Shown one piece after another: positions 10,585 through 55,851 of a stretch of DNA of 64,000 bases. The stretch's first letter is position 1; each line of letters opens with the position of its first letter. The DNA comes from Scatophagus argus. Lineage: Eukaryota; Chordata; Actinopteri; Scatophagidae. The DNA is taken from contig NC_058504.1 in NCBI RefSeq assembly GCF_020382885.2, positions 16,627,019 to 16,691,018 of the forward strand, written 5' to 3'. The position numbers were made by a program, and so were the translations under genes. Below the pieces are notes generated by a model. That model was not told the origin of the DNA, searched no databases, and saw only the letters and a list, made by a program, of their open reading frames with translations.

Positions 10585-13500
10585 ATGGATGTGTTTATGA
10601 AGGGTTTGTCTAAAGCAAAAGAGGGGATGGCTGTGGCCGCAGAGAAGACCAAGGAAGGAGTTGCAGTCGCGGCTGAAAAGACTAAAGAAGGAGTAATGTT
10701 TGTAGGTAAGAAGATCACAAATGTGTGCTTGCAGGTTATTTTTACATGCATGTCATACATGGGCCCACGGAGACCGCTGATGTTCCTGCTCTGTGTAGGG
10801 GCAGCAACGTATCAGCAGAGGGAATATTTTATGATTTGGCAGATGTAGCCTTTCCACATGACCTGGAACGAATGGCTAAATTATACGACGAGCTCCCTTG
10901 TTAGCACGATAAATAACAGAATCCTTCTGCCCTCACACTTGGAAGAAGCCAGCAGACTGGGCGTACTGCTTTTGACCATCATAATACTCCCTCATGGATT
11001 CCTCTGTGTAAGTATAGTTATTTTAACAGACTCAATGTGAGGTGTAAGCTAAAATGATAACATTTTATAGCGTACAACATGAGAGTTACTGAATGAACGC
11101 ACTCCTTTGATGAGTTTGGAGTAGCATATCATAGCAGCGCTAGTTTAATAAATCAGTCAACCTGACAGGTGACCTGTGTGTTTGGTTTGCTCTTGCAGGC
11201 CAATGCAGTATTTAGATTATCAGCATTTGTACCCTTTGTGTCAAAAACGGTTTATTGTCACAGCTATCAGTAGTCTTTGAAAGGATACGCTGGGCTTTTG
11301 ACGTAGATGACGTGATGCAAGGCTCTGAATGTCCTTATGCCCTCTCGCCTGACTTGACTGGGCCACAGGCAGGAGATGGAAACAGGGGTGGGGGTAGGGC
11401 AGCAGGATGGTGGGAGCAGCTCTTGCCACATGTCCGTGTATTGGATGGCAGCAGATTGTAAAACAGTCTAAGCCCACAGTCACCTCCTGCAGACAGACTA
11501 AAGGCCTCTGCTTTTGTCCTTTGCAGTGCAGCCTCATTTGTAATGGACACCATTACAGATATCTTCACAGATTTTGTGCTAAGCTCCCGAGAGTCTTATG
11601 GTCCCAGACTGTTTCTCTTGCTTTCAACCATTATTCAGATGAACACATGTGACGTGGAGGTGGATAGAAAGGTTCATAAAAAAGGGAAAATGTATAATGA
11701 AAACTGTAGTTTTAATCTTTTTGATCATCTTGCGTTCAAAGTGAAACACTAGAAAAGACACTTATCGTATTCTAGTATTATGTTTCACTTGTGAGTGCAG
11801 GGATATGCATAATTCAATAATCTGCGTTGCTGGGCAATAATTCAGGATTATTCTTTAATAGTGTCAAATGATTATGAAATAAAATTTTAGCGTCATGATA
11901 ACCAATGCTAGTCAGTTCTGTTGACTCAATACCAGCCATCAGCCATATTTTATAGCACCTAATTTGAGTTATATAGTTTGGTTTTATTATGTCTGGGGCT
12001 GCAACTAATGGTTGATTTTATAAGCGATTAATCTAGTAATTATTTTATTGATCACTCAATAATCTTTGGCTTTCTAAATGTAAAATAGTGAAAATAATCA
12101 ATACAATGAGTACGTGGCTGCCAGCTTTGTTTGTTGCTTGTCAACAGTCCAAAGCCTGAAGGCTTACTGTATAGAGTTTTTGTACCACACAATTAAGTGT
12201 AAGTAATTTCACTTGTTTTATTATGTTTGATTTAATATATTTCACCAACTTTATATATCTACTGGCAGTCTACAGTTGGCCTGTTAGGGGTGAATGGGGG
12301 GACAGTTAGATGACTCAGGGAGCTTTAATGGACCAGTCATTACAGATATTTATTTTGTCAGTTGTTGGGTTGTTGTCAGAGGGCGCACATTTCCAGTGAC
12401 ACCCTTGCTTGTTGGTCTGCAGTCACCAGCTCAGACCATTGATTCACTGACAGTATGTTTTTGGAGCATTCAAGCGTATTCCAGAAGAAGTAGTCACACA
12501 TGTCTTCATTTTGATGGAACCCACTTACTCTTACACATTTAGCACTGTGTAGTTGTCACTCATCACCATCAGACAGCCAAACATGTCAGCCTGCCAACAA
12601 AACACGTGCAGGCTTATTTCCATCGTCTCGTCTTGCCTTCTGCCTGTGGTACACAGAAAGGCAAAGGAGATTTTCTGCGTACTGCTTGTTGAGCGTGGTG
12701 GTGCCCTAGAAAGCTGCATATGATTTGCTTGAAGGTTCCTCTTGGAGGAGGGGTAAGAGTGATCTGATAGGTCTGTGGCCCACCTTTTGACAGCTGCTGC
12801 TGCTGCTGCAGTCCGCCCACCCAGCTGAGCTGAGCAGTCAAGCCTGAGTAAGGCAAGAAGGAGAGGCGGAAATGAGAAAACCCTGCTGTACTAGATGCCA
12901 CTGAATGTCACAGCTAATTCATTTGTCTCATTCAAAGAGCATCTATGTACTGTACTGACACAGAGGAGCACTGTATCTGCATAAGTGCTAATGTAAAGGT
13001 AACATCGTTAGGAATTCAGTCTTTTTTGGGTATTTTTCAGGTATTTTATAACAACTAAGGTGACTTAATTTCGTTTTTTCTTTTTTACTTGCCTTGAACA
13101 CTTTTCTCAAAATCATCAGATTGTGTTTTTATGTAAAAAGAAACAGCACAACACAACAACGAGCTTCAGTTAAAATAGCACAAGTCATTTGCAGTTATTG
13201 ATATTTCTAAATCCTATCCACCAGCTGTCATCCTTTTGTGTTAACTGTAGATGTAGTGCAGTAGCTGCACTTAAATGGATGCATCCCCTTAGATGTATGT
13301 TTTGCTTTGAGGCTCGTCTTTTGTAGTGATGGTTCTGTGCTTCATCATCATTTCATCTCTCCTTGGTTGGCTTTTAAAGGCCCTCCGGGACCAATAAGGC
13401 ATATGACTGCTCCACAGTAGAGAGGATGACAAGGCTTGAGTGATCAGGAGCAGTGAGCACAGAACAGGTTGCTCAAATAGCTCAATGGAAAGCAGAAATT

Positions 13501-16500
13501 GGCTGCAAAGTCGAACAACTCCTGACAGTAAAAGTGCAGGGAAACCCAGTTGCTGCAGTTGTGATTGTTCTCTAGTACATCTGGAGCTGTGGCACCCTGT
13601 CATTAAGAAAGCAAACTGATATTGCTTTGTTGAAATGAAAACTAACTGATTGGTCAAGATAGTTAAAAGTTAATCATGTTGGTTACATTTCACCGTTTAT
13701 CATGAGCGTTTATGAACAGGATTCAGCAGTCTGCAGTGCTCTTTGATTAAACGCAGATTTTCATCATGTTAGGCTGCAGTAGCATTGGTGTTTCATAAAT
13801 CATGCTGTCAAGGTAGTAAGAGAATAAGGCTCCCAGAAATGGTGCATTTAAAAAAGGTCCAAGGCAGGTTAAAATTCAGACTGCGTAAACTTTTGTTTAC
13901 ATGAATGGAAGCAGTGTTTCGGTGGTTAGTTCGGTGGAAGTTCTTGTATCTACATATACACAGACTCAGTTCATCTTAAAATGCTAAATGTGAACAAGTA
14001 AGGCACTAACATGAATTTCTTTTTTTTTCTCAATCCAGGTAGCAAGGCCAAAGACAGCGTGGGCACAGGTGAGGTTTCCATCTGTTTGTCAAACATAAAC
14101 ATCATCGTTGTAACAGTAAGACGCTTCAATTGATTACAGTGAAAAAACACTTGATCCTAACTAGAAAATGGCAACTGAGAAACATGTGAGGGCAAACATC
14201 TTGTGCAGGCTTTTAATCAGTCTGCTGCATCTGCTGAGATAATGTTACACATGTACATGATGTTTGTGTGTTTCTGCAGTGGCTGAGAAGACCACTGGAG
14301 CAGTCGGGAACATCGTTGCAGCCACTGGCCTGGTGAAAAAAGACGAGTTCCCTGCTGACATGAATGTATGTGCGCCCTTACAGTCACCATTAACACAATA
14401 ACATAACACACATAGTGAAGTGTAGCACACAGGCTTAGGTTCTTCAGTGTGTTCCTGTTATCAGACAAAATATTACACCCACAGGAAATCAGTCAGCTCC
14501 TCACAGTGAAATCACATTCGTGCTGACTGACGTGGTTCGACTCCGTTGTCTAGAAACGCAAACTGGCAAAACTGTATAGCCGAAGGTATGAGTATCAACA
14601 TCTCAGGCTGTAACTATCTGATGATTACTAACTAATGATTATTTATAACACAATAACTAATGGTTATATTAATATAACTATTAGACATTTCCCAATCTAC
14701 AAATTGTTTTTTTTGTCCTTCCAACAGTCCAAAAGATTAAGTTATATATTACATTTTCAACAACAAATGATAATTAGTACAAGTAACAAAGCACAGAAAA
14801 ACAGTGTTGTGTTGCTTGATAAAATTTTCTCTTGTCACTCACAAACTGTTTTCAGTTAGCTGAGTAATTCTTCATCCTTCAGTCCAAGCGGTACAGTTAG
14901 ATAATATTAGTTTTATAACTTGAACAAACCCTTTCTTATACATCTCCTTTCTTATGCAAAAGGCAGCAGAGATGCAAGTATACTTGCTTAAAATGCAGAT
15001 ATCCTTTATGCCGCAAATTGATAGAAAAGGTTCTTTAGATGGATATTCCACAAATTTAATGTTTAACTTTCACAAAGCTGGAAAAAAAAGTGATGAAAAT
15101 CAAAGTGGCTGATAGACATTTAATCCCTGGTGTTAGCCTTGTTTTAATTTGAAATTCATGTTATATTTAATTCAGTACATTGTACACAAATCCTCTTGGA
15201 CAGGTTTTCAGGCTCAGAATTTTTCCTTGGTTTGCCTTGTATTAGTCAAACTCAAAAACACTGGATGCTACGTTTCCCATAAAGGAACACAGTAGCATCT
15301 TTGTTGATACCCTCACAGCCCTGTAAAAATGAAGTGCCCCTTTAATTGCCTGAATGAAATAAAATGACTGCAAACGCTGCCATGTACTTGCAACAACAGT
15401 TTAGGTGTTCTTCTTGACCTGTTTATGTTTGTGAACATGTGCCTGAGGTCGGGTGAGAGACCTTGGTTCCAGATCCAAGGCTCGCTTACAGTTGGCCACT
15501 TGCTCAAAGGTGTGTTCGTTAAAGTCTGGACAGGATTGTGGTTGTAGCAGAGCCAGATTCAGACAGCAGTAATTAACATGTTCTGATGAATCTCTATGTC
15601 AGTGTGAAAAAGAGTTACTAGTTCACATCTCATCTGTTTTATTCCTTTGTTCTTTTCTTATTTCCTTTGAGTTCTGCTCTTGTGATGTGAACCCCTGAAG
15701 GCCTTTTTTAATTTCACAGCTTTCTGTCCTCACACAGTTTATTTACACTGATCTTGAAGACTGGAGGAGAGAGATGGAAAATATTTGACACAAACATAGA
15801 ACATGGAACAAATCAACATGGCTTGGACATTTGAGTGATAACACAGTTTATTCACAGATTATTTATTTTTTGCTGTCAGCATGAGGTCGCTGTCCTGTCC
15901 TAAGCCAGAGTCAGAAACTCTCCCCTGACAGACTGCTCTAATTGGCTTCTCGAAGCTGCTATCTGAGTGATAAAACTACTTATTTTGACACCCTGACAAG
16001 AGCCTGTTAAACATCGTTATGATGTGCAGGGTTACATTTTGTTCACTTCGAACTTGTGCTGGATTTGTACATCCTCTCTGTTTAACTGTATCCTGCAGAT
16101 GTTTTAAAGAAAAAAAAAATAACCAGTTTTTACACAAAGAGTCTTGTGTTACACGGTTTGAAGATTTGGTTTCTCTTGTGCTCACGTCTCGACTGAATTC
16201 GTGTGACCAATGAGACACAAAACGTCTGTTACTCCTCTGTTATAATCACATAAACAGCCCTTTTCAAGTTCACTTTATCTCAGGCGATGGTCCGTCTGAT
16301 TAGGTGTGTCTTGGTGGTGGTTTCCCATTGTGCTGCGTTTAAGGCCGTGGTAATCATGTTGGTGGGCTTAAAGCAATAGCACCAGCTCGGCAGAGTACAC
16401 AGGATTACTGTCTGTTCTTCTCTGACCTAATTGACTTGATTAGTGCTGGGTTTAAAAATAAATGTGTGGTGACCCACTAGCTTTGTTTTCAGGGCTCGCG

Positions 16501-18465
16501 GTCACAGGTGCAGCAATGATGGAGCGCTGTTTGCTTCAGGAAGCTCTCAGAAGGCGATCCAGTGTGTTTACACCCACTGTGGCTAAACAGTGCCAAGATG
16601 TCAAGTGTTTACATTAAAAAATATTAAAAGATAAGGTTGGAGAAATTAGATATTTTTCTTATTGTCAATCAAATCCATGAAAAGACCACATCAGCAATGA
16701 ATTAATCCTGTAATAAGTGTCATCTTTGTACTTTACATCCTGTTAAAACGGTCATTGAGCCACATTGTTGCCCTTGATGACATGTTTGTATACTACAATT
16801 AACGCAGGCCGCTAGAGTCATAGTCAACCAACAGATGCTGCCCTGCTGTAAAGAACCAAATGTGAACTGGTCTACAGGCAAAAATAGTCCCTGTTGCTTG
16901 ATTGTTTACATAACTTTTTATTGAAAACCACAGTGCCCAGCTGATTTAAGAAATTATTTATCCCTTTTTTAGAGAAATTTACATATTTCTTAGACCTCTT
17001 TATTAAAGAATTACGTCTTCAGATAAAATCCATCTGATTCGGGCTGAGGTGAGGTGAGAGAAGTACATCGGGGATGATCTTCTGAAAAATAAATATCCGC
17101 CAAGTCTGGCTAAGAGTGGACAGCCATGTGGGTGTAGGGCCTGTGAGGCTGAACTTAAGGCGCAGCTGTGTGTGTTTGAGCTAAATGTAAATGTCATGCA
17201 CGAGTAAAGCACATTAGTTTAGTTCAGCATGTTAGTATATTAAAATGTACTAATTGGAATTAAATACAAAATACAGCGGAGACTTTAGTTGAGTGTTGGA
17301 CACTTAAATGTTGGCCTGATGATGGTGCTACATCAAACGTTTAGGGAAAATATGAGAAAATGTTATTACAACTCATTCTGTGTGAATTTGGATTTGGATT
17401 TCATGGTAATCCATTAAAGAGCTGTTCAGATATTTCAGACTGGACCAAAGTGGTGGACTGACAGACCCAAGGACTTTTAACATTCAGTCCACTGCATGGT
17501 GAAAAGATTTTTTGTTATCTTTCATAATCTGGACTAAGATGGTAGAAATGACAAATATCCTCACTCAGGCTTGAAGATTTCTATGGCTTATATTTGTGTA
17601 TATTGATGTTACTTTATATTATTTTAGATTTGAATTTTTAAATAATCTTGTGTTGTACAAGAGGAGCAAGGACACATCACATTTCAGCCTACTAATCTGT
17701 TTTATTGTGCAACAGATAGAATATTTTTTTCATGCAATTGGCTTAGAGGGTCTTTAGGGAAGCGGAACAAAAACCTTCAGAACAGAAGTGTTTGTTAAAT
17801 CATCTGTTTTTTGTTTTTTTTTAAATACTCCATGACTAAAATGTAATCAAAATGCATGAGAGTCACAAACTTCTCTTTTTGTGAAAGAAGGAACATAAAG
17901 CATGATGATTTAATAATAATGCCTTATCTTTCAAGTTCAAGTAGCTACAAATATGTACAGTGGCCTTTCTTACTGTAGCTCTTTTGTCCTTCCCTCCCTG
18001 TCTCTGTCTCTGCAGCCTGAGGAGTATGGGCAGGAGGCCATGGAGGGCCAGGGAGAGGCAATGCTGGACCCAGAAGGCGAGACATATGATGAGACCCAGC
18101 AGGTAACCGGCCTACACGACACAAAGCGCGTACACATCTCCGCATTTGGCTGCGTAATTTGGTTGTATATAGCTTTTGTGTTTTTTATGAGAAAAAACTG
18201 TAAAGCTGTAGACTGCAGTCCAGGACGAACCCATTCACTTACAGTAAACAGAGGCTCATCAGTATTCACCAGCTCTGCATGCTTACGCATTTTAACTGTA
18301 CTGCAATTCACTAGCTCTTCACACTTGCCCTCCACTTCAGTCCTACACGAACACTACAGCTCACACTGAGGTGATTTTTCTCTGGAAATGAAAACAGAGG
18401 CCTAAACAAGCCAATTGCCACATAGTGAGTACAGTGAAAATAGCACCAGCTACCTACACTGAGCA

Positions 18466-18516
<51 letters not shown>

Positions 18517-19620
18517 ATGTGTGGAGGAAGGATGCAAGTCTGACACAGATGGTTATTTTTGGAATTTGGCTGTCAGGGCCGAGACAAACTGTGCACAACC
18601 TATTGCTGTGGAGACAGATTTTAAATACCGAAGAATAAATGAAAATATCACACAGTGCACATAATATTGAAATGTTTTACTGGTACATGCAGTGATTTAA
18701 GGCATAGCCACAGTTATGTTTGTAGAAACCTATTATACTCCTATTATAAAACCTATTATATATTAAAATATCCATAATCAGATTCGACTGGAGGAAGATT
18801 TAATGAAATTCAGCGCGATCTCTAATGTTCAGTTTGTTTGGTACATATGGTGGGATTTTCTTTTCATTCTCACTCACACTCTTGCATTAATCGGTTAAAG
18901 GACAAAAATGCAGAAATTCCCAAAGATGCAAATTAAAAGTGAATTTCTTTGAAGCAGCAGCTTGGATCATCCACGTCCTCCTCCATCTCTCTCCTACTCC
19001 TCCGCATCTCTTTCCCCTCCCCCATCCTTTGCTATGCGTGAGTTCTGTCTGAATGGGTGTGGTGATGACGCTCTCTGCCTCCGTGCATTGTGGGTAATGT
19101 CAGGGCCTCCCTGCATTGCTGTAAATATGGAGTCAGAGTGCTGCAGGGGGAACTAAGCCTTCTCATTGAGGATTTGGAGACAAGAAAAAAAATCTATATA
19201 ATCCAGTATCACTCTTGGTTTGTGAGCATTTCAGTTGACCCAGGACACATTCCTGGCTTTTTTTTTTTTAAATAATCATGAGCATGGAGGAGGTGTGTGC
19301 AGGGTTACAAGGATGCTGGGAATGTTCTCACGACACGTCCTTGAAGCTGGTGTAGGCTCATGCTGCCCTCTGCTGGCTGTGCAGAGACACTAACACAGTA
19401 GTGCAGCTTGCAGCTGCGATGGAGTGACATCACTGCCTTCAGCAGAGAGCAGTCATGTGCCTTTTATCATATCTATTCTTCTTAAACCGATTTCATTTGA
19501 ATGTAATGCGATTAAGTTTTAATTAGAGTCTTTAGCTTCTCTGTGCTGCAGACCCGCCTGTCTCTTAAAAATCACTTTTTCTTTTCCCAGGAGAGCCAGG
19601 ACTACGAGCCAGAAGCGTAA
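10585..19620 (+). CDS. sncb: Beta-synuclein, 5 coding exons, 117 aa
   Basis: Synucleins are small presynaptic proteins that coat curved, acidic vesicle membranes with an amphipathic helix and assist SNARE assembly. Coding exons are 10585-10705, 14039-14068, 14280-14365, 18016-18102 and 19591-19620, all with GT-AG borders; they sum to 118 codons including TAA. The N-terminus [14 protein letters not shown] and the 11-residue repeats with cores KAKEGM (10-15), KTKEGV (21-26, 32-37) and degenerate KAKDSV (43-48) are diagnostic. The acidic tail ends YEPEA, as in alpha- and beta-synuclein. Mammalian beta-synuclein has 134 residues; the missing ones fall in the repeat 4 to NAC part, leaving a very short hydrophobic core (residues about 55-69). 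The neighbour gprin1 supports sncb over snca. Introns hold repeats but no other gene. Confidence 0.95.
11995..12125. repeat. Decayed dispersed repeat with GATTAATC core
   Basis: The segment GGGGCTGCAACTAATGGTTG followed by GCGATTAATC and AATTATTTTATTGATC matches from memory a dispersed fish repeat probably derived from a non-autonomous hAT-type DNA transposon. It has no coding capacity. A related AT-rich piece lies near 14.63-14.88 kb in another sncb intron, and one near 39.33-39.38 kb. Confidence 0.5.
17427..17461 (+). repeat. Dispersed repeat piece, copy 1 of 2
   Basis: These 35 bases recur at 42232-42266 in the same orientation with one mismatch; the shared core is GGACCAAAGTGGTGGACTGA. 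The match shows both belong to one dispersed repeat family. The full element borders are not clear; similarity probably extends 100-200 bases upstream in both copies. Confidence 0.8.
18466..18516 (+). repeat. (GT)n microsatellite in sncb intron 4
   Basis: About 24 uninterrupted GT units. On the complementary strand it gives a run of CA and produces artefactual Cys-Val and Thr-His open frames that are not genes. Confidence 0.95.
19363..19376 (-). promoter_or_regulatory. Candidate CTCF site
   Basis: On the minus strand the bases read CCAGCAGAGGGCAG, a full match to the CTCF core CCASYAGRKGGCRS. It lies in the last intron of sncb, about 1.4 kb before the ADIRF-like gene. Whether it is bound cannot be seen from sequence. 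Confidence 0.4.
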
Positions 19621-20391: not shown

Positions 20392-20787
20392 AAGTAAAAA
20401 AAGAAACCATTTGTTATTGTTCATATTTGTATATGTATTGATCATGTTTAAACTCACATTCGATCACTTAGATCTAAAACCTTTTGTAATTCTGATGTTT
20501 CTGCCTGTTGGTCTAAACGAGGTTTTCTTTTTTTGCTCACTCATGTCTGGGGGTTTGCCTAGAGGATGTGTAAAATGTGCTGAGCAGGCTCCGGCCCTTG
20601 GCAGGAAGCTGCCATAGCTGGGATGCCAGTCTGATCAGGCCTATTGGGGTGGGTTTTGTTTGGGTTAATCCGGCTGGAACGTGCAGGATTGGTGGTGCTG
20701 GGCTCAAACAGCGGGTATTAAACAGCCGCTCCCGATGCTGTCGGCTCAGATGGATGTTTGGACGCTGCACGGACAGAGACAGAAGCC

Positions 20788-21483
20788 ATGGCCTCGTTCA
20801 AGAAGTCCTTTGAGAGCCTGAAAGGCACCAGCCAATCGGCCGCAAAAGGAGTCACAGACAGTGCAGGTACAGAGCGCCAGCTGTAAGATGACGCAGGTCG
20901 ATGTGATGTGTGGTGACAGTGAAAAGGTCTTACTTTCACGATGGTTTGTCTTTATTGGTTGAAAAAGGAAACACTTGTTAGTCGAATAAATCAATTTATT
21001 TTTTCTGAAAAAGCAAAAGTAACTGCAATAGTTTTTCCTCCTGAGGTCAGTCACTTTTAATCCCTGTGATGTATTTACAGTGCAGGCAGCTCAAGAAGCT
21101 GTGCAGCAGGTGGCAGACTCCTCCAAAGAAACAGTCAGCACAGGTAAAGAGCAGATTCTTCTGTCTTTAAAGCTTCATGCTTATAATAGCAATCTTACTT
21201 TTAGAAAGGAGTGAGCTCCTGAAATGACTGAATCCTCTAAACGTACAGAATGTTAAATATACATTTAAATATGTGACTTACATGTGAGTTTGAGTATCTT
21301 AATCAAGCCTAATACCTTATGCATAATGGTGATGATTTGTTCTTTAAATTCTCTTCTGCTTCACTGTGTATCTTTGAAGCTGCTCAAGAAGCTAGCAGAC
21401 AGACTGAAGCAGTTATAGGAAAAGCTGCAGACAAGGCCACGGACACCATCAAGGAGTTTGGACAGAAACTGGAGACAAAATAA
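20788..21483 (+). CDS. ADIRF-like small helical protein, 3 exons, 81 aa
   Basis: Coding exons 20788-20866, 21081-21143 and 21380-21483 join cleanly with GT-AG borders and two phase-1 introns to give 81 residues. The start codon has a strong context (GCCATGG). The protein starts MASFKKSFESLKG and is almost wholly amphipathic helix, rich in Ala, Gln, Lys, Thr and Asp, with repeated stretches such as QAAQEAVQQVADSSKET and KAADKATDTIKEFGQKL. Length, N-terminus, composition and the C-terminal pattern resemble adipogenesis regulatory factor (ADIRF, 76 aa in human). In human, ADIRF neighbours SNCG; here the relative neighbours sncb, about 0.4 kb after its poly(A) signal. ADIRF promotes adipocyte differentiation, but the role of this gene is unknown. 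A generic apolipoprotein-like or LEA-like helical protein is the alternative. Confidence 0.75.
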
Positions 21484-21735: not shown

Positions 21736-21741
21736 AATAAA
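21736..21741 (+). terminator. Poly(A) signal, ADIRF-like gene
   Basis: AATAAA 253 bases after the stop codon of the three-exon gene, in AT-rich sequence. It gives a short 3' UTR. Confidence 0.6.
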
Positions 21742-23627
21742 AACAGATACCAACTTGTTGCTGAGGTCTGTAAAATGTGATATCCTGCTACACACCGTGG
21801 AGCTAACCCTGTTAGTAGCTGCAGACGTACTGCTTCCGTTTTTTTTTGTTTTGTTTTGTTTTTTTTTTATTGTTTTTATTTTTTGCGCTGTGGAGAGTGC
21901 TCAACAACAAATCACCACGGTCATTATTACAGACACACCACTGAGAGGATGGCCTTTGGCAGGCTGATGGCTCCTGATGAGGATGTGATCTGAGCTGTCT
22001 ACCTTCAGCTGCACACCTCCCTCCATCACACTAGTGGTTGCTAGGCAACAGATCTCTGTGGCAGCCAGTGATTGGTGGAGGCCTTTGAATTAATGGTGAG
22101 AATACCTCTGTCAGTACACAGTGTTCCGGCCAAACTGCAGCCCACCTCTACAGTAAAACCAAACAAGGGGAGACAAAAATCAGGCAAATATATAAAATTA
22201 TTTCCTCTGCCTCACGCAATTACTTGAGGCAGCAGAATCACCGAAGCTCAAGAGAAATATGCATGACAAAGTGGAGAGGCTGGAGGGAGGAATGAGTATA
22301 AAAGAGGTGGTGTTTTACAAGTGTTTGTTTGTGTGGGAGGCACAGCTCAATGTCCTCCAGGCTCCTTTGGCCGATGTCTCCTGCTCTTTTTTACATACTT
22401 TCACTGCTGCAGCAGATTGCTCACTTTTCACAAATGTTTCATTAATTTCTTTCCAAACTCAGTTTGCATTAATTTCCCCACGTCCCCCCATGACCCCAGA
22501 TACTCCACTGACCACAACTTTGACAGTCAACAGTGCCTTTTTGATCTCTTTACTTTTTTATTACGATGAGTTCCTTGCTCAGACTAATGTGGCCTTCACA
22601 GCGCATTGTCTGTCTTATTTAAAAGTAGTGGCGCATAATTAAGAGAAGTCCCTCTTCTGCCTACTTAACCCTCCCTTCAGGAGCCCTTATGCTGATCATC
22701 TGTCATGACATGAAAGCTTTTATCTCATTTTATGTTTCTCTAAAATTTCTCCACCAAAACCACAACAGTTCACCAATGCACAAGTTTAATCTCTCTGTAC
22801 ACAGTTGCAATTGTGTTGCTATGAGAACCTGGAGTTAATTACTATGATTTAGAGATGATTAGAGAGCTGAACAGAGATTTTGTCGTTACATTACCACACA
22901 GTGCCAGCACCCGACCGTGGTTTCCAGGGAAACTGGAAATGTGAAGCTTTTCAGTAGACACAGCCACAGCTTAAAGAGGGAGGACTGCCTAAGATAGATT
23001 CTTCTAGAGACAAACCTGTAGCCACTGCAATCACTATCAATCAACAGGGGAGGTAAACGGACAGATGTGGGTCCTGATCAACGTTGAGATTTGCTATGAC
23101 TGACCCAAATTTGAGAGACAGTTATGGAGCGACTTCAGTCTGACCTAAAGTTCTGAGGTATGTCTATTGCTCTCGACTGCAATTTGATTTGTCCTGCTGG
23201 TTTTCATGGTTAAATTTTGACAATCACTCTGGATTTCAGTGCATGACTTTGGCTTTATGTGATGATAGATTAAAACATAACTTGACTCTTGACTATGTGG
23301 ACATATTTTTAGGGTAGACAGGTGCAGGATCCATCAAACAGTCAAATGTTTTAAAATGCAATGTAATCACGTGTTTAAGAACAATAAATATCCCACATTG
23401 CAGTGTCCTAGAACATTAAACAAGCATGTGATCATTCTCATTAAATAGTAGCAGTGATGTAATTCGGTTAGATGTCAGTGTTTGGATTCTTGAAATTGTT
23501 ACCCTATGATGGAATATTTTTTATTACAGAAACAATTTTTTCCCTCCACTCATGCTGGGGTTTGTAGTCATATTTATGTATTACAAATAGCAAAAACAGT
23601 GTGTCAGTACTGTGTTATGCCCTGCAG
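21742..23627. other. Intergenic region and probable 5' part of gprin1
   Basis: No protein-coding exon is evident. A T-rich, TTTTG-type run lies near 21838-21882. A plausible donor (GTATGT after GAG, 23158) could end a non-coding gprin1 exon that would splice to the acceptor at 23627/23628. That exon's start and the promoter are not identifiable. Confidence 0.35.
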
Positions 23628-23650
23628 GTATTTCAACACTTAAATGCAGA

Positions 23651-25843
23651 ATGGGAAGTCTTAAGGATGAGATGAGAGGTCTCAGAGAGGACCACAAGCC
23701 TTGTGAGAAGGCAGATGATGGAGAGTGTCCAGGCAGCTCAGATGTCAGTGCTGTGCCTGAGGGATCTCAGATTAACACGAGTCAAGAGTCAACAAGCCAA
23801 GGGGGCTATGAGCCAGAACTTCACATGAATGCCAGCTACGATGAAGAGACAGACAAGAATCCAGTATCCAAGCGTCAAGAGCTTTTAGGAGGGCTTTGTG
23901 ACAACACTGACCAATCAGACTATCCTGGAGTTAAAGACTCCATGCAGACTGCTGCTATCCCTGTGGTACAACAACCTGAAGCTGAGAAAACAACAGCAGC
24001 TACACATGACACAACAATCTCTAACAGGTTCCTGAGTGATGGAGGGGAAGATGGTGAAATTCAGGGGGAAACATCTGAGGATAAAAACATGGATCATGGC
24101 CAAGATAAAGAAGCAGAAATTGAGAATATCTTGGTGCCCGTACCATCAACTCCAGGCCTCTCTGATCCGTGTTCCCCAGCTCCTGCTGGCCAGCACCACA
24201 TGCGCACACAGGTCAGCCTTGAGGTGGTCCAGTGTCACTCCGCAGCCACCAGCCCCATGACTCCTCCTGAGGGCGGACACTCTTTCTTCTTCCCAAGCTC
24301 TTTTGGGAGATTTGGAGCTGTAGCTGCTAACACGAAAGATGCTGAGCTACAGGTGGGTCAGCAGTTGGAGTACTGCTCTGTTGCCACATCCCCCATGACC
24401 CCAAAGACTCCATCGACCACAGCTTTCCCAGAGCTTATTGGTAGGGAGATGGTGCAGAAGGAGAATGTGAAAAAAGATGAGGGACAGAGAGAAAGTGACC
24501 CCTTGGCAAAAAGACCAATAGAGGCTAAGTCAGAGATAACTGGAGATTCGAAATTTACCACATCAAAAGAGCTGAGTGAAGCCTTCAGCTGCAGCGTGTC
24601 TCCAGAGAGTCTTTCCACTTGCCCTGCCACCGTTGGGTTAATATATTCACAAGTAAATCTGGAGGATAGCAATCAGCAATGCAAGCAGCCAAGGATGGGA
24701 AGTATGGATCAAGACATTACAATCATGGTAACTCACTATAACAACAATGATGAAGAAGAGTCATATTTGTATCCCATAGAACCAGAAATGGTCAAAATAG
24801 ATGAATATGAGGAACTCGGAGGAAGCAGCAGTGAAGTGAAGAAGGAGGACGGAAAGGAAAATATCCACAAAGAATATGCTGTTCCTGATGATGCACCAGA
24901 CAACTCAAGCACAAAGTCTCCACAAAGAACAACTGAAGAAGCCTCTGTTTCTGCTTGTGATGAAGCAAAAACAGGGGTGAAATGTGAAAATTCTGACGTA
25001 AAAGAAAACAGTGGTGGAAGTGAAGAACTTAGAGATGTTTCCGTGATGAAGCATCCAGTCCCTGAATCTCCAGCTCCCTTTGGGTGCCACAACATCCGCA
25101 CACAAGTGAGCCTAGAGGTGGTACAGTGTCAGTCTGCAGCTACCAGCCCCATGACCCCTCCTGAGGGTGACCAAGCCTTCTACTTCCCCAGCGGGAGGTC
25201 TACCACTGTGAGTGCAGCGACCAAAGACGTAGAGCTGCAGGTGGGTCAGCAGGTGGAGTTTCGCTCTGTCGCTACTGCACCTATGACGCCAAGAACTCCC
25301 ACCACCACAGTTTTTCCTGAGATAAGGAAGGAAACTAGTATAGAGGAGAGAATAGTGGAGGAGGAAGAGGACAAAAAGGAGCAGTGTGTGTTGGTGGACA
25401 AAGAAGAAGAAGTAGTGAAGGAGCAGGAGAAAGCCACTAAAGAGAAAGAGGTGGCAGCAGCTGAAGAGGACACAAAGGAAGAAAGAAATTGTAAGGAGAA
25501 AGGCGAGGAGCCGGTACAGGAGGTGAGCTGGGATGAAAAGGGGATGACGTGGGAGGTGTATGGGGCTGTGGTGGAGGTGACTGTCCTGGGCTCAGCCATC
25601 CAGAAACACCTGGAGAAGCAGGTCAAAAAGAGGCAGCCCTCCATGCCGCCCCCACCCCCACTCAACCCCTCAGCCATGCCCCTGTCTTCAGAGTGTACCC
25701 AGGAGGGTTCAGGACAGGGCCGGGCGGGTAAGAGGAGAGAGCGGGATGGGGAGGTGAGCCGACGCAGAAGAAACCCCTTCCGCCTGATAATGGAGAATAT
25801 GCAGCAGCCACATTGTTGCTCCAAGGCCCATACCACAGAGTGA
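23651..25843 (+). CDS. gprin1: G protein-regulated inducer of neurite outgrowth 1
   Basis: GPRIN1 binds activated Go/Gi/Gz alpha subunits at the growth-cone membrane and promotes neurite outgrowth. The 730-residue product is encoded by one exon. The family's C-terminal module is clear: WDEKGMTWEVYGA, then AIQKHLEKQ, a proline-rich stretch, RRRRNPFRLIMENMQ and a Cys-Cys pair near the end, the likely palmitoylation site. The middle is acidic and low in complexity, with a Glu/Lys-rich run before the C-terminal module. The RTQVSLEVVQC...SAATSPMTPPEG and ELQVGQQ...SVAT.PMTP blocks occur twice, about 300 residues apart. An in-frame ATG at 23612 would add 13 residues, but it lies before a good acceptor (TGCCCTGCAG, ending 23627), so I prefer ATG 23651 (MGSLKDEMRG). 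Position beside sncb matches human GPRIN1. Confidence 0.93.
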   Translation: MGSLKDEMRGLREDHKPCEKADDGECPGSSDVSAVPEGSQINTSQESTSQGGYEPELHMNASYDEETDKNPVSKRQELLGGLCDNTDQSDYPGVKDSMQTAAIPVVQQPEAEKTTAATHDTTISNRFLSDGGEDGEIQGETSEDKNMDHGQDKEAEIENILVPVPSTPGLSDPCSPAPAGQHHMRTQVSLEVVQCHSAATSPMTPPEGGHSFFFPSSFGRFGAVAANTKDAELQVGQQLEYCSVATSPMTPKTPSTTAFPELIGREMVQKENVKKDEGQRESDPLAKRPIEAKSEITGDSKFTTSKELSEAFSCSVSPESLSTCPATVGLIYSQVNLEDSNQQCKQPRMGSMDQDITIMVTHYNNNDEEESYLYPIEPEMVKIDEYEELGGSSSEVKKEDGKENIHKEYAVPDDAPDNSSTKSPQRTTEEASVSACDEAKTGVKCENSDVKENSGGSEELRDVSVMKHPVPESPAPFGCHNIRTQVSLEVVQCQSAATSPMTPPEGDQAFYFPSGRSTTVSAATKDVELQVGQQVEFRSVATAPMTPRTPTTTVFPEIRKETSIEERIVEEEEDKKEQCVLVDKEEEVVKEQEKATKEKEVAAAEEDTKEERNCKEKGEEPVQEVSWDEKGMTWEVYGAVVEVTVLGSAIQKHLEKQVKKRQPSMPPPPPLNPSAMPLSSECTQEGSGQGRAGKRRERDGEVSRRRRNPFRLIMENMQQPHCCSKAHTTE

Positions 25844-27236: not shown

Positions 27237-30200
27237 TCATAGATCTGTAGTGCTGAATGCATGGTTGTTATAACCCATGAGAGGATTGTCTGTGCCTTTC
27301 TTCTTGCCCTGCTCAGCCAGCGCTGCACTGAGAGGTTCAATGTACTCTGGTGGATCGTTCTTGTCCTCCTCCTCCTGGATCATCCACTGATGAGGAGCAG
27401 GCAAGTTTTTAAAATTAGACCATATTCTAAGAAGTGCAAATAAGGATGGACTTCAAAATGTAAACCAACCTTGGCAGATTTTGTTTGTTTGTCAGGAATG
27501 CTCATGTCATCGCCATAGTCCAGGGAGTTCAGACTTAATTGGGGAAAGAAAAGAAGGCGCAAAGTTATCTCCACATGTACAATTAATCATTTCAGAAAGA
27601 CAGCATTTGCACCTCTGCTGCACAGTGGAGGGTGAGGTTATGTGTCCCCGTGAGCTGCCACCACATCAAACTGTAACTGAGCAAATAATTGCTATCAGCA
27701 GATAGCATCAGATAGTCACAGAGAGTTTATCTTTACCTGACTTTGTCCACATCTGAGCTCTCCATGTCCAAGTCCAGGACCATGGCTGTGTCGATGTTGA
27801 GGTTGAGCACAGGATTAGCCCTGTGAGCAAATAATCATATACCCAGTCAGAAATATGTTATTTTTCATATCATTTATTGATTTGTTTATCTTATTAAGAC
27901 TGTTGTCTCCTGACCCCTCCATGGTGTATTTATTGGTTCCAGGCACCACGGGACCACTTTTCTGGTTGTCCGAAGTCACCATGGATGCAGAGTTCATGGC
28001 TTTAGATGCCTTCAGCTTCCTCTTATAACTGTAGCATGGAGTGAATCGGTCAGTAAACAGACATAGTACCCCTCTGATGTTTTTACATCATCTATGAGAT
28101 CAAGTGATGACCAGGAAGTGTGGATTTACCCTGATAAACTACATGGTTATTAATCAATTCTTATCCCTATCTTTATTCTAAATCCCTTTTCTTACTTTCT
28201 GCGAGTGCACATCAGGGAAGTTGTGAGAACAGCCAGTACGATGACAAGGCCTCCCACTATTCCCAGCAGGATGTACTTCACAGCGTCTGTATCTTGTTGG
28301 ACCACAGTAGCCTTCCCCTGAAACAGAAGTAAGAAATCTATTTTTAATATATTGTTCTCTGTGGATTTATAATGTTTCATTTACATGTCATAGTCAGATG
28401 TCAAAGTTTCTCAACATCTTACAAGAATCACTTAATTATGAATGAATGAATTACATGAATATATAACTAAAACAAAATAACATGCTATAATAGTCATATT
28501 TTGTTGTATCTTTATTTGTACATGTGCCAAATGATTACAATTCAAGTCTGAGACATTCAGTCATATCTTGCTATTCTGCAATAAACTCCCTTGTCATTAA
28601 ATTCTGATTACTATATTTTTGGAAATTGTAGTAAAACATCAAAAATTCTAATAGTGATTAATTAAACTAAAACAATATTTCAGGCTTCAAACCCAAAAGT
28701 TATGCCCCTTAGTTGCACATTCTGCTCCCAATTAAAAAAAATCACCTCAGCTAAATGAATCAGAGGCAAAATAAAATACAACACTGATTTTTTGTTCTCA
28801 GGCACAAAAAATGTAAAATGTGAAGAAACTGTCATTCATTTTAGCCTTCGAATGAAACTCAATATGTTGTGGTTTTGCTTAATATTTTGGACATTTCACA
28901 GGATGTATTTCTAGTGGTCACAGTTTTTCAATTCACTTGAATAAGTAATTTGAACATATAGAAGTTTTGTCTCCTCACTATCAGGTACAACTTGGTGCAG
29001 TTAACCCATGAAGACATGACAAAAAAACAGGCCATGTAATGTGTCTCTCATGAAGTTTCAACATGTAACCAGAAGAAACTATAAAATGACATAAAAGAGA
29101 CCCTTTCAGAAAATAAAATTTCAGCTCTACAGCTGCTTGTACTTACAATGTTCGTGAGGCCAACATCTTGCAGTGAAAGATAATGTTCAGGATCAGAAAG
29201 CTTCTCTTCCACTTCTGTACGGGTGAGAGCGGTCCCGTTGAAGTAGACAAAATATGCCATTATGATTGTGTTACCTGAAGCCCTGAGAGAAAAATATGAC
29301 ATACTTACACCAATAAAATGATGAGCCTAAATAAAATATTTCAGTCATTTAAAGACTAATCCCTTCTTGTGTTGCTGCTATGGTCTAAATTATCAGCAAA
29401 TAATGTATCCTCAAAGATATCATTGTTAACAGGAACACTGGCACCACCTAGTGGACAACAGGATATACCTGCAAGTGAAAATCTGATGATTATTTGGGAT
29501 TTCCTGTCAACACCAGCCAATGATTTCAAAGATTTAAAAGAATAAGATTTATAAGTTTTCCGACTTTATCCAGCTGTATAATTTATTCTGATATGTGGTG
29601 ATTTACATTTAGAGGTGATGACAAGAAAACTCACCTGGCTGTTTCTGAAGTGGCCGACTTGATTGAGACAATTTTAACAGAAGCCTTGGTGGCACTAGTA
29701 AGCGCCCTGGAAATGAAGAAAATGAATGAATGAAGAGTGAAAATGAATGAAGAGAAAGAAAATACCAAGTCCTCGATGAGAAGCAGTACAGATTTAAGTG
29801 TCAACTAAGTGAAAAGTCAGAAAACCTTCAACTCTCTTTTATAATACGTTATGTAGAAATGTACCTGATGATATTATCAATTTCTTCATCAACTTCTGCT
29901 ACAGATCTTGAAAATTCAAGTTCAACTTTGTATGTTTCATCAATTGTGAAAATCTGTAAAACAGAAAGAACAGAAGCATTAACACAAGCTGAAGTGTCCA
30001 TCTCTGTGTCTGCGGCACAGACAGGATCCTTCACTGTGGGACATGAATGAAAATGCAGTGACATGTCTGCTTGTGTCCTCACCTGCAGTGAGGTCTTGTT
30101 TGAGAGACCGCCGTTGTCAGTTGCAGTTACTGTTACCAAATACTTCCCTTTCAGTGTCACATCAAGCCCCTCAGTAGATCTGTGGAAAGTGAAAGAAATG

Positions 30201-33200
30201 CTGAGTGCAACCATAGATTAAAGATCCCCCAGACACAAACATGTATAAGCCCACACCCTCATCCAAAATACAAAAGGCCATAAAACCAAACTCTTTTCTC
30301 GCTTTGTAGTCATTTTGAGTCTCTCTCTCTCTCTCTCTCTTGTTGCCATGTCTCTTTGTAGTTGTTTTGTTTCTCCTTGTGGTCATTGTGATTGAATTTC
30401 CATCTAGAAATATTAACACTTCAACCAGAGGCTCTGGTCCAGGGGCCCGCTGACCCTTTGGCCCTCTTGGACTGTGTGCAGTAGGCCCATTCAAAATTCA
30501 TCCTTAAGTAAAAATGAAAGCTGACCCAAACACATGTTTTGAGCAGAATGAGATAGGCCACATGATTGATAACTTTGTACTCACTGGATCTCTCCAAAAT
30601 AAATCTCCTTTTGCTGTGTGGTCTTGGCTTTGAACAGAGTCCTCTGTTGATTTACAGTGCCGTCAATGTTCTCAAATTGGACTGCCGTTACTGTAAACTC
30701 AATGCCTCGATGTTTTTCAGAGTCGCGGTCCATCGCCTGAGAGCAGCAAAAGATACAAGCAAGAATGTCCAGACATCCTTTCACATACCCGATTAACAAG
30801 CTGAAATCATGGCATTGATTTGTTTTTTGTCCATACTCACAGAGACTGCTGCAACCGATGTCCCCTCACTTGCACTTTCTGACACCACAACTAAAATTTA
30901 AATGAGGAAAATCAACATTAAAATTTACAAAGCATAATAATATAATACACAAAAACAGGCAAAAATGACTAAATTCAGCCCAAAAGTGTCATATTTCCAA
31001 TTTTTACATTTGTTAAAAATGTAAAAACATTTGTTTTCCTTGCAGAACACAGGTGTTGCTAGTCTACCACTGCCTCGATATGTAAAAATGTTATTATTAT
31101 TATTATTATATATGTGTTATGTTAATGTTATTTGCTTTTGCAAATGTGTGACTTTTGTCTTGTAAATTATTATTGCAGCAGCAGAACATAAACCCTCATA
31201 TTTGGCAAAGTAAAATTTGTGTTTTTGTCAAAGGAGTTTAGTGACTTGGGTGAGAAGGATATATCGAGATTTTATTTTAGGTATGCCTTTTATGGGTGGC
31301 TGATGTACTCTTTGGTGCTGCCCCCTGTCTAAGGAAGTGCCTTCCTTAGCTTCCTAAAATGGTACTCCTGTTGCTTCTGAGGTTGTGCCAACATCTACTG
31401 CAGGTAAAACACACCAGTCGAAAAAACTGAACTAAGGTAAGAAATGCACTTGCTCACAAGACAAACAAACAAACAAATAATGTTGTTAAGTTAAAATTTC
31501 CTTGCAGTTGGACGATTTCACATATAAACTCACCAAAAACAGAATCTGAGTAAAGGAATTCTGGAGCGTTGTCGTTGATGTCTTCAATGTTGATCACCAT
31601 TTCTCCTGAAATATTGGATAAAAATAAGAGAGTAACATAAGATGTGTGTTTGTAGGTATGTGTTTGACAATCTTATGCTTTTACTGCTTTTATTTGATGC
31701 TCTTATGCTTTGTTATCGCTACACAACCTAGTGCTGACCTGTTGTGACACTGTTGTTCTCTCCTTTCTCTGTGTACTCATCCACCACCTGAGCCTCTATC
31801 ACCACTTGGTCACACTCTTCATAATCCAGCAAATGCTCTGGGTTGACTTTGACTTCTCCTGTTGGTTCCAGAATAAAGCTATTGCAGGGTTTCATGGAGC
31901 CACTGCATCTGCAATTCATGGATTCCAGCTCGTAGACCAGGGAGTGGTTTCCGTCTTTGTCGAACCCTACAAACCTCCCAACGACTTCACCACCGGTGGT
32001 GTTCTCCTTCACTGTCACAGGCGCTAATGGCTTGAACTCGGGCCTCTCATCGTTAACATCCAACACATTGACCTCCACCATCACTACAGCCTTCTTCTGT
32101 TCCAGATCTGTTGCCTCTACCTGAAGTTTATATTGCTTGTGGGTGCTCTCGTAGTCCAACTCAATGTCTGGGTCCACCATGATATTTCCCCTGTAGCCCT
32201 GCCCCTCCCCCTCTGCAAAGGTGCGAATGATAAAGCTACCAAAACTTCCTTCAATGATGCTGAAAGAGATGCGGTTAAAGTCTGTCGTTTGGTCCAAATC
32301 CTTAGCGTAAACAGAACCAACATATGCACCTGTTTGGATGGAAAAACACAGTTAAATCTGGTCACACAGTTGTGAACAGTTGAAAGTGTTTCAGAAAAAT
32401 AAATACTGACCTTTTTCCCCTTCTTTAACTGAGAATGTGTAAGAGGATTCTTCAAATTGTGGTGAGTTGTCATTGACATCCTGGGATGCATGAAAAGAAA
32501 ACTGTTATCATCCTCACCTGGAGTGGCAGCGTCAGTAGCAACACGGCAACAATAATTTGCTACAAACTGAAGACAACTTACCTCTATATTGATGATAACT
32601 TTGACTGTGCTAGACAGTGGGGGAGTACCCTTGTCAGTAGCGGTTACATTGAGTTCGATCTTCCCGTTCAGCTTTGGGTCCAGGGCCTCCAGATCAAGGA
32701 TCCCACTGTTTCTCAACACGCCGGTGTTCGGGTCAATGGTGAAGTTATCACTGTACTCACTTGGTGCAATTCCATACACTATTTGGCTGTTTTCTGTACC
32801 AGAGTCATCTGCATCTGTAGCCTGTTGACATGACAAACATTAGAAACAATGGTTAAGAAGTGCATTTCTTACTCCATGTTGCAAGTCCACTACATTACCA
32901 AAAGTATGTGACCACCCTGCTACAACAGCTTCCAGTTCTCTAGGAAATTTTTCCATAAGAATTTGGACAACTACTGTAAATGTATAAAATGTTGTATTAA
33001 AGCTTGTGTCTCCAGGGGGAGCTGCATGAAGCCTGGCAGTTGGGTCAAATCATGTTGCTTGAGTCAGCATCTGTTGGGGCCGAAGTTTTGAAAAGAGAAA
33101 CATCTGTGGCGATATTGGATGCTAGGAGCATAATGTAACTGAATCTTCGACTAAACTGTTTAAATTGTGTTGTCGGTAAAGTGAGTGCCAGAAAGAGTGT

Positions 33201-36200
33201 ATCTCTGGTTCAGCTGCATCAGTTGTTTTTTTTTGTCCATCTTGACTCATGGTAGCGTTTTTACTATTTCTGTCTTTTGAGACAGACACTTAATGTGTGT
33301 AAATTGAAGACACGCAGCAAGTATTTTTCAGTCATTCAAAACCTAGCTATGAGAGGGAAGTGTTTGCAGTTTTCTTACTGTTCTCTCACAGTTACCTCAA
33401 TCTTAAGCTCAAACTGTCCACCCTCTTCAACAAACACCAGGTAAGAGTCTCTGTTGAAGACTGGGGGCTGGTCGTTGATGTCAGTCACAGTGATCTCCAG
33501 GACTGTGGTGCCTGGCTTGCCATCTGTGTCTCTGGCCTGCAGAGTCGCTGAATACAGAGATCTGACCTCACGATCCAACAGGATTTGGTTTTTCACGTAA
33601 ATTTCACCTGAATGTGGCTTCACGTCGAAATACAGTAATCTGAAACAGAGATGCAGACTGTTCAGTGGCATGGACTGGGCACAAGGTAGACAGGGGCTGC
33701 ATTCAAATAACCGGAGAAAATGCAGTTTGGTCGAGTGTAGGCATACATGCTGTCTGGAAGAAGTCTGTACGTGATCTTGCCTTGATCCATTGTGTCAGGG
33801 TCCTCTGCCTGGGGGGAAAAGGACAATGTGTGCTCCTCTGAGTGCCATTCGAGAATTTCTTACAAACAAGCTCAAACTTTCCGTGGGAGAATCAAGATCA
33901 GAAAAGACTTACAGTAATTGTTTCTATTATTGTGCCATTAGGAGAGTGCTCAGCCACTCTCAGCTGATAGGTGTCTTGTGGGAATGTGGGGCTGTTGTCG
34001 TTGGAGTCCTTGATAGTAATAGAAACTGTAGCAGTGGACTTGAATGTGGATTCTTCATTATCTATAGCAATCACCTGCACCATAACACAAGTAACAGAAA
34101 CATCTGAGATTGGTGAAGGTCTGATGACGAAAACTAATGGTATTATCAGAGGCTTGTGGACTATATTTTAAAAAATATTCTTACTTCTACAACAATTTCC
34201 TGTCTTTCCTCAAAATCCAGTTTTTCGGGCTGCTTGACCAGAAGCTGAACAACACTGTCTGATACAGCAAGCTGAGGTTCCACAGAAAACACATCCTTGT
34301 CAGCTCCCTCTAGGATTAGCTGGGTTCTGGACGTCTGTGAAAAAAGTCAACAAAAATAATTATTCATTACCAATACTCTGAGCATCACAGGGAAACATGT
34401 GTTAGTTGCAGAATGTCGACCTTTTTGTGTTTTGTTGTTGTTCTTCTTCTTCTTCTTACCTTATCCAGATCTTTAACTGTCATGCCAATTGGAATAGCGC
34501 CTAATGAGTGTTCAAAGACCTCTCCTGTAAAGTCACTCGCTTCCACGCAGGACAGCTCGTCTCCAGGGTCTTCACACTTGTAAAACAGTGGCCTGTTGTC
34601 ATTGATGTCGATGATGTTGATCAGTACATCTGTTGTGATGCTGGCTTGGACCCCATGAATGTTCTGTTTTGACTCCATAGCCTAAAATTATAAATAAAAA
34701 CATCATCATCATCATCATCATCATCTCAACATTTGCCCAAATCCTCTCAATTAATTAAGATTGTCAAGACTCAAGAAGACTCAAGTGTTATTTTTTGGTC
34801 TTCAGATTCAGTTGTACTGCAGCCTTCACACAGCACAATACATCACCCCAGAGAAGTGACATATTTCCTTTTTTCTCCTCCTCTCAGTTGCTTCCCTGCA
34901 TGTTTTGAAGTACTTAAAGTGAGAACAAGGGCAGAAACTTCAATATATATTTGTTTAAAATCACACCTTAAATTTCACAGAGTGCAGCTGGCGTCTTTTG
35001 CTTTTCTCACACCCCTCATCAGCTTGTTTTCTGCTCTTTCACCTCCTTCTGAAAATAAAGAAGTAGCCCCCATGCTGAGCTTCACTCCCTGAGGTTCCTG
35101 GCCATGACACCTCTATTGGACCTGCGCTCTTCCCCTCATGCTAAGTCCTTTTTCATTAGAGGTGCAGACTGTCCTTCCTGTCTTTCAAACGTGTTCTTTA
35201 AGGTGAGAGAAAACACTTATCACTAAATATCTCTACTTTTCTGCCTCATTTTGATGCAAAGCTGTTGATGTATTTCTCTGAGCATTGTTCCCTACGCTTT
35301 TTGGTACTGAATGGGAATAATAGATTTCTTGCAGAGAGTTAGATGAGAAGATCTGTTTAGCAGCATCTCTAAATCTGTGTTATTATGATGTTGTTTCCCA
35401 TTAGTTTAATCCATACACAAACAGAAATGGAAAAACAACTTTTTGATGTTTAATGAAGAGCTGTGTGTTGGAAAATGTTTTTGGCTGGGTGCAGTGATTC
35501 TGTGCTGTCTTGTCGGCACCATGAGGATGCCAGGCAACCAGCACAAACTTGTGCTAGGTGGGTGTTATTAAACCTTGGACAGAGCCAGGCTAGCTGTTTC
35601 CCCTTGCTTCCAGTCTTTATGCTAGGCTAATCTAATCACCTGCATAGCCCTAACTGGATAGCATACAGACGTGAGAAGTTGTATCAATCTTCTTCTCACT
35701 CTTGGCAAAATGTTAAACTATTCTTTTAAATCAAGGTAAGCTTGAATTAAAGGAGAAAAACATTTATACAAGGGAGAAATTTGATTAACTACACAGAAAT
35801 GAGGATTGTGTACCTTTACAGTCAGGGTGACAGCGTCACCAATTAATTCTCTGTCAATTGCTGAAAGTACAGATATGACTCCGTCATCACTTGAGATTGT
35901 AAACAGGCCATCCACTGTGGAAGCTGTCAACGATGTCCAAAACACAAACAAGAAAATTCTTATTTACTCACTCAGTGCAAACAACAAATTATTTGAACTT
36001 CTTTTTTAAAAGTTGACGTGGCTCACCTTGAATGCTATAGATGATATCATCGTTGACTCCTGTGTCCCCATCTATGGCAAATACTCGTAACACAGACTGG
36101 CCCTGGCAAAGAAAACAAGAGTTTCTAAAACCAGAAGCAGTTGAAAGTCTCCTTATTTAAACACAAAGCCAAAGAGGACTGTAAATTTGTGTCGTATCAC

Positions 36201-49911: not shown

Positions 49912-55851
<5,940 letters not shown>

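Follow-up and report, generated by a model that had tools for sequence, protein, structure and literature searches.

The sncb locus and its ADIRF-like gene

The window, by which we mean the whole stretch of 64,000 nucleotides analyzed here, contains a beta-synuclein gene (sncb) followed on the same strand by a small ADIRF-like gene and a gprin1-like open frame, and further along by a cadherin-repeat gene and by RNF44-like and FAF2-like exons. The features are as follows, in window positions.

10585-19620, + strand: sncb (beta-synuclein), five coding exons; Pfam PF01387 Synuclein, E 2.5e-31
20716-20721, + strand: TATTAA box, candidate promoter element
20788-20866, + strand: ADIRF-like coding exon 1, 79 nt; 26 complete codons and the first base of codon 27
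21081-21143, + strand: ADIRF-like coding exon 2, 63 nt, equal to 21 codons; phase 1-1
21380-21483, + strand: ADIRF-like coding exon 3, 104 nt including the TAA stop
21736-21741, + strand: AATAAA, candidate polyadenylation signal
23591-25843, + strand: gprin1-like large open frame; Pfam GRIN_C PF15235, E 8.6e-34
29849-38804, - strand: cadherin-repeat gene, taken as cdhr2 from its position; open-frame borders serve as its outer limits
55575-55685 (approximate borders), + strand: RNF44-like RING exon, with a RING motif at 55581
61400-63505 (approximate borders), - strand: FAF2-like exons, recognized by motifs

The coding exons of sncb lie at 10585-10705, 14039-14068, 14280-14365, 18016-18102, and 19591-19620, and the last intron carries a TG microsatellite (18468-18515). 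The sequence-only reading had placed a three-exon ADIRF-type gene on the strand of sncb, about 1.2 kb past the stop codon of the latter, and its coordinates proved exact: the stop ends at 19620, and the ADIRF-like gene starts 1168 bases downstream. Its three coding exons (20788-21483, + strand) are bordered by AG/GT splice sites, join into a frame of 81 amino acids, and are separated by two introns that are both in phase 1. The TATTAA and AATAAA elements, both called from sequence only, are consistent with a separate transcript for the ADIRF-like gene, which may thus be under its own promoter.

Beyond gprin1, the assignments are based on domains and motifs. The cadherin-repeat gene shows cadherin motifs and matches Pfam Cadherin in one exon (E 1.3e-14) and, below the cut-off, in another (E 0.0053). 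One FAF2-like exon matches Pfam FAF1 below the cut-off (E 0.017), and another has neither a Pfam nor a PDB match; the names RNF44 and FAF2 were given to the window exons from motifs that we presume to be characteristic of these genes. Regular expressions for eIF4E, clathrin, UNC5, and other neighbor motifs returned nothing usable in the window, leaving its positions 1-10 kb without annotation, and no EIF4E1B exon was recognized upstream of sncb by this approach. In cattle, the gene order given in the available part of PMC7655849 is FAF2, RNF44, CDHR2, GPRIN1, SNCB, and EIF4E1B, with no gene listed there between GPRIN1 and SNCB. The window order SNCB-GPRIN1-CDHR2-RNF44-FAF2 is this order reversed, so the neighbors of the SNCB locus are conserved, and the ADIRF-like gene, located between SNCB and GPRIN1, is the addition relative to the cattle order as given in that source.

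Similarity to human ADIRF and the predicted helix

The comparison with ADIRF rests on two sequences, the fish protein and human ADIRF, the latter in a provisional sequence whose last 18 residues are printed in an accessible passage of PMC10749094. The two proteins (81 and 76 residues) resemble each other over their full length, with 37% identity to this provisional sequence and a local alignment score of 99. When the fish protein was shuffled, neither full shuffles nor shuffles within the 11-residue register ever reached this score (2000 of each), and class-preserving shuffles did so in 5 of 2000 cases; shuffling human ADIRF gave 0, 0, and 3 of 2000, respectively, and shuffling both proteins gave 0 of 1000 in each of the three modes.

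The exon structure points in the same direction. The junction of exons 2 and 3, which splits the codon of fish residue 48, aligns without gaps with residue 42 of human ADIRF. According to the portion of PMC6964862 available, mouse has lost a segment, termed the promoter and first exon, that codes for residues 1-42 of the 76 in ADIRF; judged from this residue count, the junction is common to both genes, although human ADIRF would have a single first exon up to residue 42, whereas in the fish gene two coding exons precede the junction. In ungapped comparisons with human ADIRF anchored at this junction (20000 shuffles in each mode for exon 3), exon 3 matches at 10 of 34 positions (full-shuffle P printed as 0.0000; class-shuffle P 0.0032) and exon 2, right-anchored, at 9 of 21 (P 0.0006 and 0.18, respectively).

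As a profile check of the ADIRF likeness claimed from sequence, a phmmer search was run with the one provisional human query against 3405 open reading frames of the window: exons 3 and 2 ranked first and second, with scores of only 11.3 bits (E 0.11) and 7.9 bits (E 1.3). A tblastn search of the window with human ADIRF likewise returned exon 3 as its best match (E 0.43). Class-shuffled versions of human ADIRF, however, had their top match among five exons (the three ADIRF-like exons and two of sncb) in 45 of 60 runs, with exon 3 scoring up to 9.3 and exon 2 up to 8.0. Because shuffled queries so often top the same exons with similar scores, rank alone proves little, and we rejected it as evidence for ADIRF, considering it driven by composition. 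No ADIRF model surfaced in Pfam for either the fish protein or human ADIRF. The top Pfam match of the fish protein was Apolipoprotein (E 0.0011, far below the cut-off), as expected of an amphipathic repeat. The PDB sequence search with both proteins gave chance-level matches only (E at least 0.27), and the NCBIfam search yielded nothing relevant.

The 81-residue protein has a net charge of 0, lacks proline and cysteine, and can be divided into 4 + 7 units of 11 residues. Its hydrophobic moment peaks at 96.5 degrees, that of human ADIRF at 97.5, and that of FAM25A at 96.0 (0 of 1000 shuffles in each case), all near the value for an 11/3 helix (98.2 degrees). AlphaFold2, run on the single sequence, returned one helix over residues 2-80 (mean pLDDT 86.3, pTM 0.39). 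The protein is predicted to be capable of folding into a single long amphipathic helix whose period is near 11/3. Judging from this pattern, it would most likely be disordered in solution and fold into a helix on lipid or membrane surfaces. The proposed disorder fits the accessible text of PMC9692912, where ADIRF is one of the heat-stable proteins predicted to be disordered. ADIRF is not generally regarded as a lipid binder; it is described as nuclear and adipogenesis related in the parts of PMC7973578 and PMC6964862 available.

Other synuclein loci in the same genome

The assembly examined, from one species, comprises 570.7 Mb in 48 contigs. A genome-wide synuclein search produced eight exon matches in four genes, which we typed from sequence as the window gene on contig C12, an alpha type on C20, and gamma types on C21 and C10. 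Both sncg genes lie near glud1, represented on C21 by thirteen tblastn matches spanning 14613288-14628244 and on C10 by a first coding stretch at 567242-567484. Two sncg-glud1 neighborhoods thus persist, convergent on C21 and on the same strand on C10. The second coding exon of the synuclein genes varies in length: it measures 30 nt in sncb (14039-14068) and in the snca candidate (near C20:6768421), 42 nt in the better sncg candidate on C21 (near C21:14639154), and, in the candidates on C10 (near C10:589658), either 30 or 42 nt. Losses of four residues in this exon have been described in some fishes (PMC10451939, in the section available).

None of the three 40-kb blocks around snca and the two sncg genes contained an ADIRF-like exon when queried with an ADIRF/FAM25A profile, the fish protein, human ADIRF, and FAM25A (lowest E 1.2). 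With tblastn, the best E values among the matches listed for these blocks were 0.84 for fish ADIRF and 0.99 for human ADIRF, and several of the best matches in the blocks were the synuclein exons themselves. When the whole genome was queried with the fish protein (E<=10), only its own three exons were found (4 candidates scored), and a pattern scan of the genome contigs matched 323 stretches, 0 of which were confirmed. As evidence for the absence of ADIRF elsewhere, these searches have limited power, since human ADIRF finds the fish exons at the 11.3 and 7.9 bits given above. FAM25 gave a single reported profile match in the genome (E 7.79, 16.1 bits, C16:9663831-9663950), which is probably due to chance.

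Origin of the gene and its possible relatives

Taken together, we consider it likely that the gene is a genuine member of the ADIRF family, most plausibly the SNCB-side ohnologue of human ADIRF. The ancestral block would have carried a synuclein, then ADIRF, and GPRIN further along, and the synuclein-ADIRF couple would predate the vertebrate genome duplications. ADIRF copies would then have been lost differentially, the fish keeping the copy beside sncb and losing those at the two sncg genes and snca, and humans keeping the one on the SNCG side. An ancestral couple of this kind had been proposed by the sequence-only reading and is supported here by the ADIRF similarity, the junction match, position, strand, and neighbors; its further suggestion that this fish retains the sncb-side copy agrees with the finding of no ADIRF-like exon near either sncg gene, which fits loss of the other copy. 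Fish and human thus seem each to have retained a different copy from a single ancient gene pair.

Alternatively, the gene could be the true orthologue of human ADIRF, relocated from the SNCG side by a DNA-level rearrangement; retrocopying is disfavored by its introns. That a single ADIRF-like gene was found in the genome (in a search of limited power), with none beside the sncg genes, would suit such a move, with which the two-sequence comparison is also compatible. Relocation would nevertheless require the gene to land by coincidence on the same strand of the paralogous spot, after a synuclein and before GPRIN, and we regard it as very unlikely. We find it more improbable still that a teleost-only gene for an amphipathic helix came to resemble ADIRF by convergence. 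While helical patterns inflate alignment scores and Apolipoprotein is the top Pfam match, below its cut-off, the ADIRF score was reached by so few class-preserving shuffles (5 of 2000), and the apoA-I, apoC-III, and PLIN4 controls score 26-48 against both ADIRFs, compared with 99 between fish and human ADIRF; junction and locus also agree with ADIRF.

A broader reading, which we hold to be doubtful, would trace ADIRF, FAM25, and the synucleins to tandem duplication of a single gene with 11-residue repeats that sat in the ancestral block before the genome duplications. On the FAM25 side, the top Pfam match of human ADIRF (provisional sequence) is FAM25 (PF15825; E 0.002, 18.8 bits, cut-off 27), with Apolipoprotein next (E 0.0021), and hhalign aligns the ADIRF profile with FAM25A at E 2.7e-4 and a probability of 41%; the FAM25A score was reached by 6 of 1000 class-preserving shuffles for each of the two ADIRFs. 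On the synuclein side, fish ADIRF, human ADIRF, and FAM25A score 78, 57, and 72 against human gamma-synuclein, with five controls at 28-51, and the class-shuffle P values of exons 1, 2, and 3 are 0.0003, 0.35, and 0.006. In both the ADIRF-like gene and sncb, the first and second coding introns are in phase 1. Moreover, a 7-residue deletion has been proposed for all synucleins (PMC10451939, in the section available); if it fell in the second coding exon, as we infer, the 42-nt sncg exon on C21 would be restored to 63 nt and so be as long as ADIRF-like exon 2, although this comparison is post hoc. At the N terminus, 5 of the 11 residues after the methionine match human gamma-synuclein (local-shuffle P 0.0032), but residues 2-14 give a class-shuffle P of 0.43 against synuclein, and the N-terminal tests range from 0.43 to 0.61. 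Against the four fish synucleins, the scores fall to 46-55 for fish ADIRF, 48-61 for human ADIRF, and 44-52 for FAM25A, with the PLIN4 control scoring 29 against sncb and 56-58 against the other three. Only one of ten anchored synuclein tests of exon 3 has a class-shuffle P below 0.05 (0.033), and two do so with full shuffles; against the window sncb, the class-shuffle P values of exons 1, 2, and 3 are 0.16, 0.19, and 0.61. The hhalign probabilities against synuclein are 1.7 and 4.9 percent, and the fish protein matches neither Synuclein (PF01387) nor FAM25 (PF15825) in Pfam at E<=10. Synuclein homology of the ADIRF-like gene was thus tested and not established; we claim none, because the fish synucleins weakened the signal and the anchored exon tests mostly fail. 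SNCG, MMRN2, ADIRF, AGAP11, and FAM25A appear as candidate targets around one human lncRNA in the available text of PMC5354744. ADIRF and FAM25A, both near human SNCG, resemble each other weakly and may be diverged tandem relatives.

To return to the ohnologue reading, the part of PMC6964862 available states that ADIRF lacks clear paralogs and is missing from mouse, rat, zebrafish, and lamprey, and the titles and accessible passages of the open-licence papers searched on ADIRF with synuclein, FAM25, or teleosts describe no ADIRF ohnologue. If the sncb-side gene is such a second copy, ADIRF would be as old as the synuclein block, what is called "adirf" in a fish may in truth be a hidden paralogue and not the orthologue, and fish could still be useful as models for an ADIRF-type function. 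The gene would extend the reconstructed ancestral synuclein block by one member and raises a testable question on synuclein origin. It is tempting to speculate, although the odds seem to us to be against it, that synuclein, ADIRF, and FAM25 in the SNCG neighborhood are leftovers of a tandem array of helix genes built on 11-residue repeats, of which the fish gene would be a surviving member on the SNCB side; synucleins would then gain named relatives beyond their own family.

Compared with human ADIRF (APM2, C10orf116; 10q23), the fish gene is alike in protein length, exon junction, near-11/3 amphipathic pattern, and location downstream of a synuclein, and we take the human gene to share the strand of its adjacent synuclein as well. 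It differs in that it adjoins sncb and gprin1, whereas the human gene adjoins SNCG and GLUD1, and in that its protein has 2 and 4 additional residues near the N terminus and a different C-terminal tail. FAM25A (human 10q23) is likewise a small helix protein of near-11/3 periodicity and aligns over the ADIRF core, but it is 29% identical to the fish protein and has 11 extra columns near the C terminus. With the synucleins (PF01387), the fish gene shares 11-residue units, its place as a neighbor, and the phase-1 first two coding introns; in contrast to them, its protein has no KTKEGV repeats, no acidic tail, and no significant profile match to the family.
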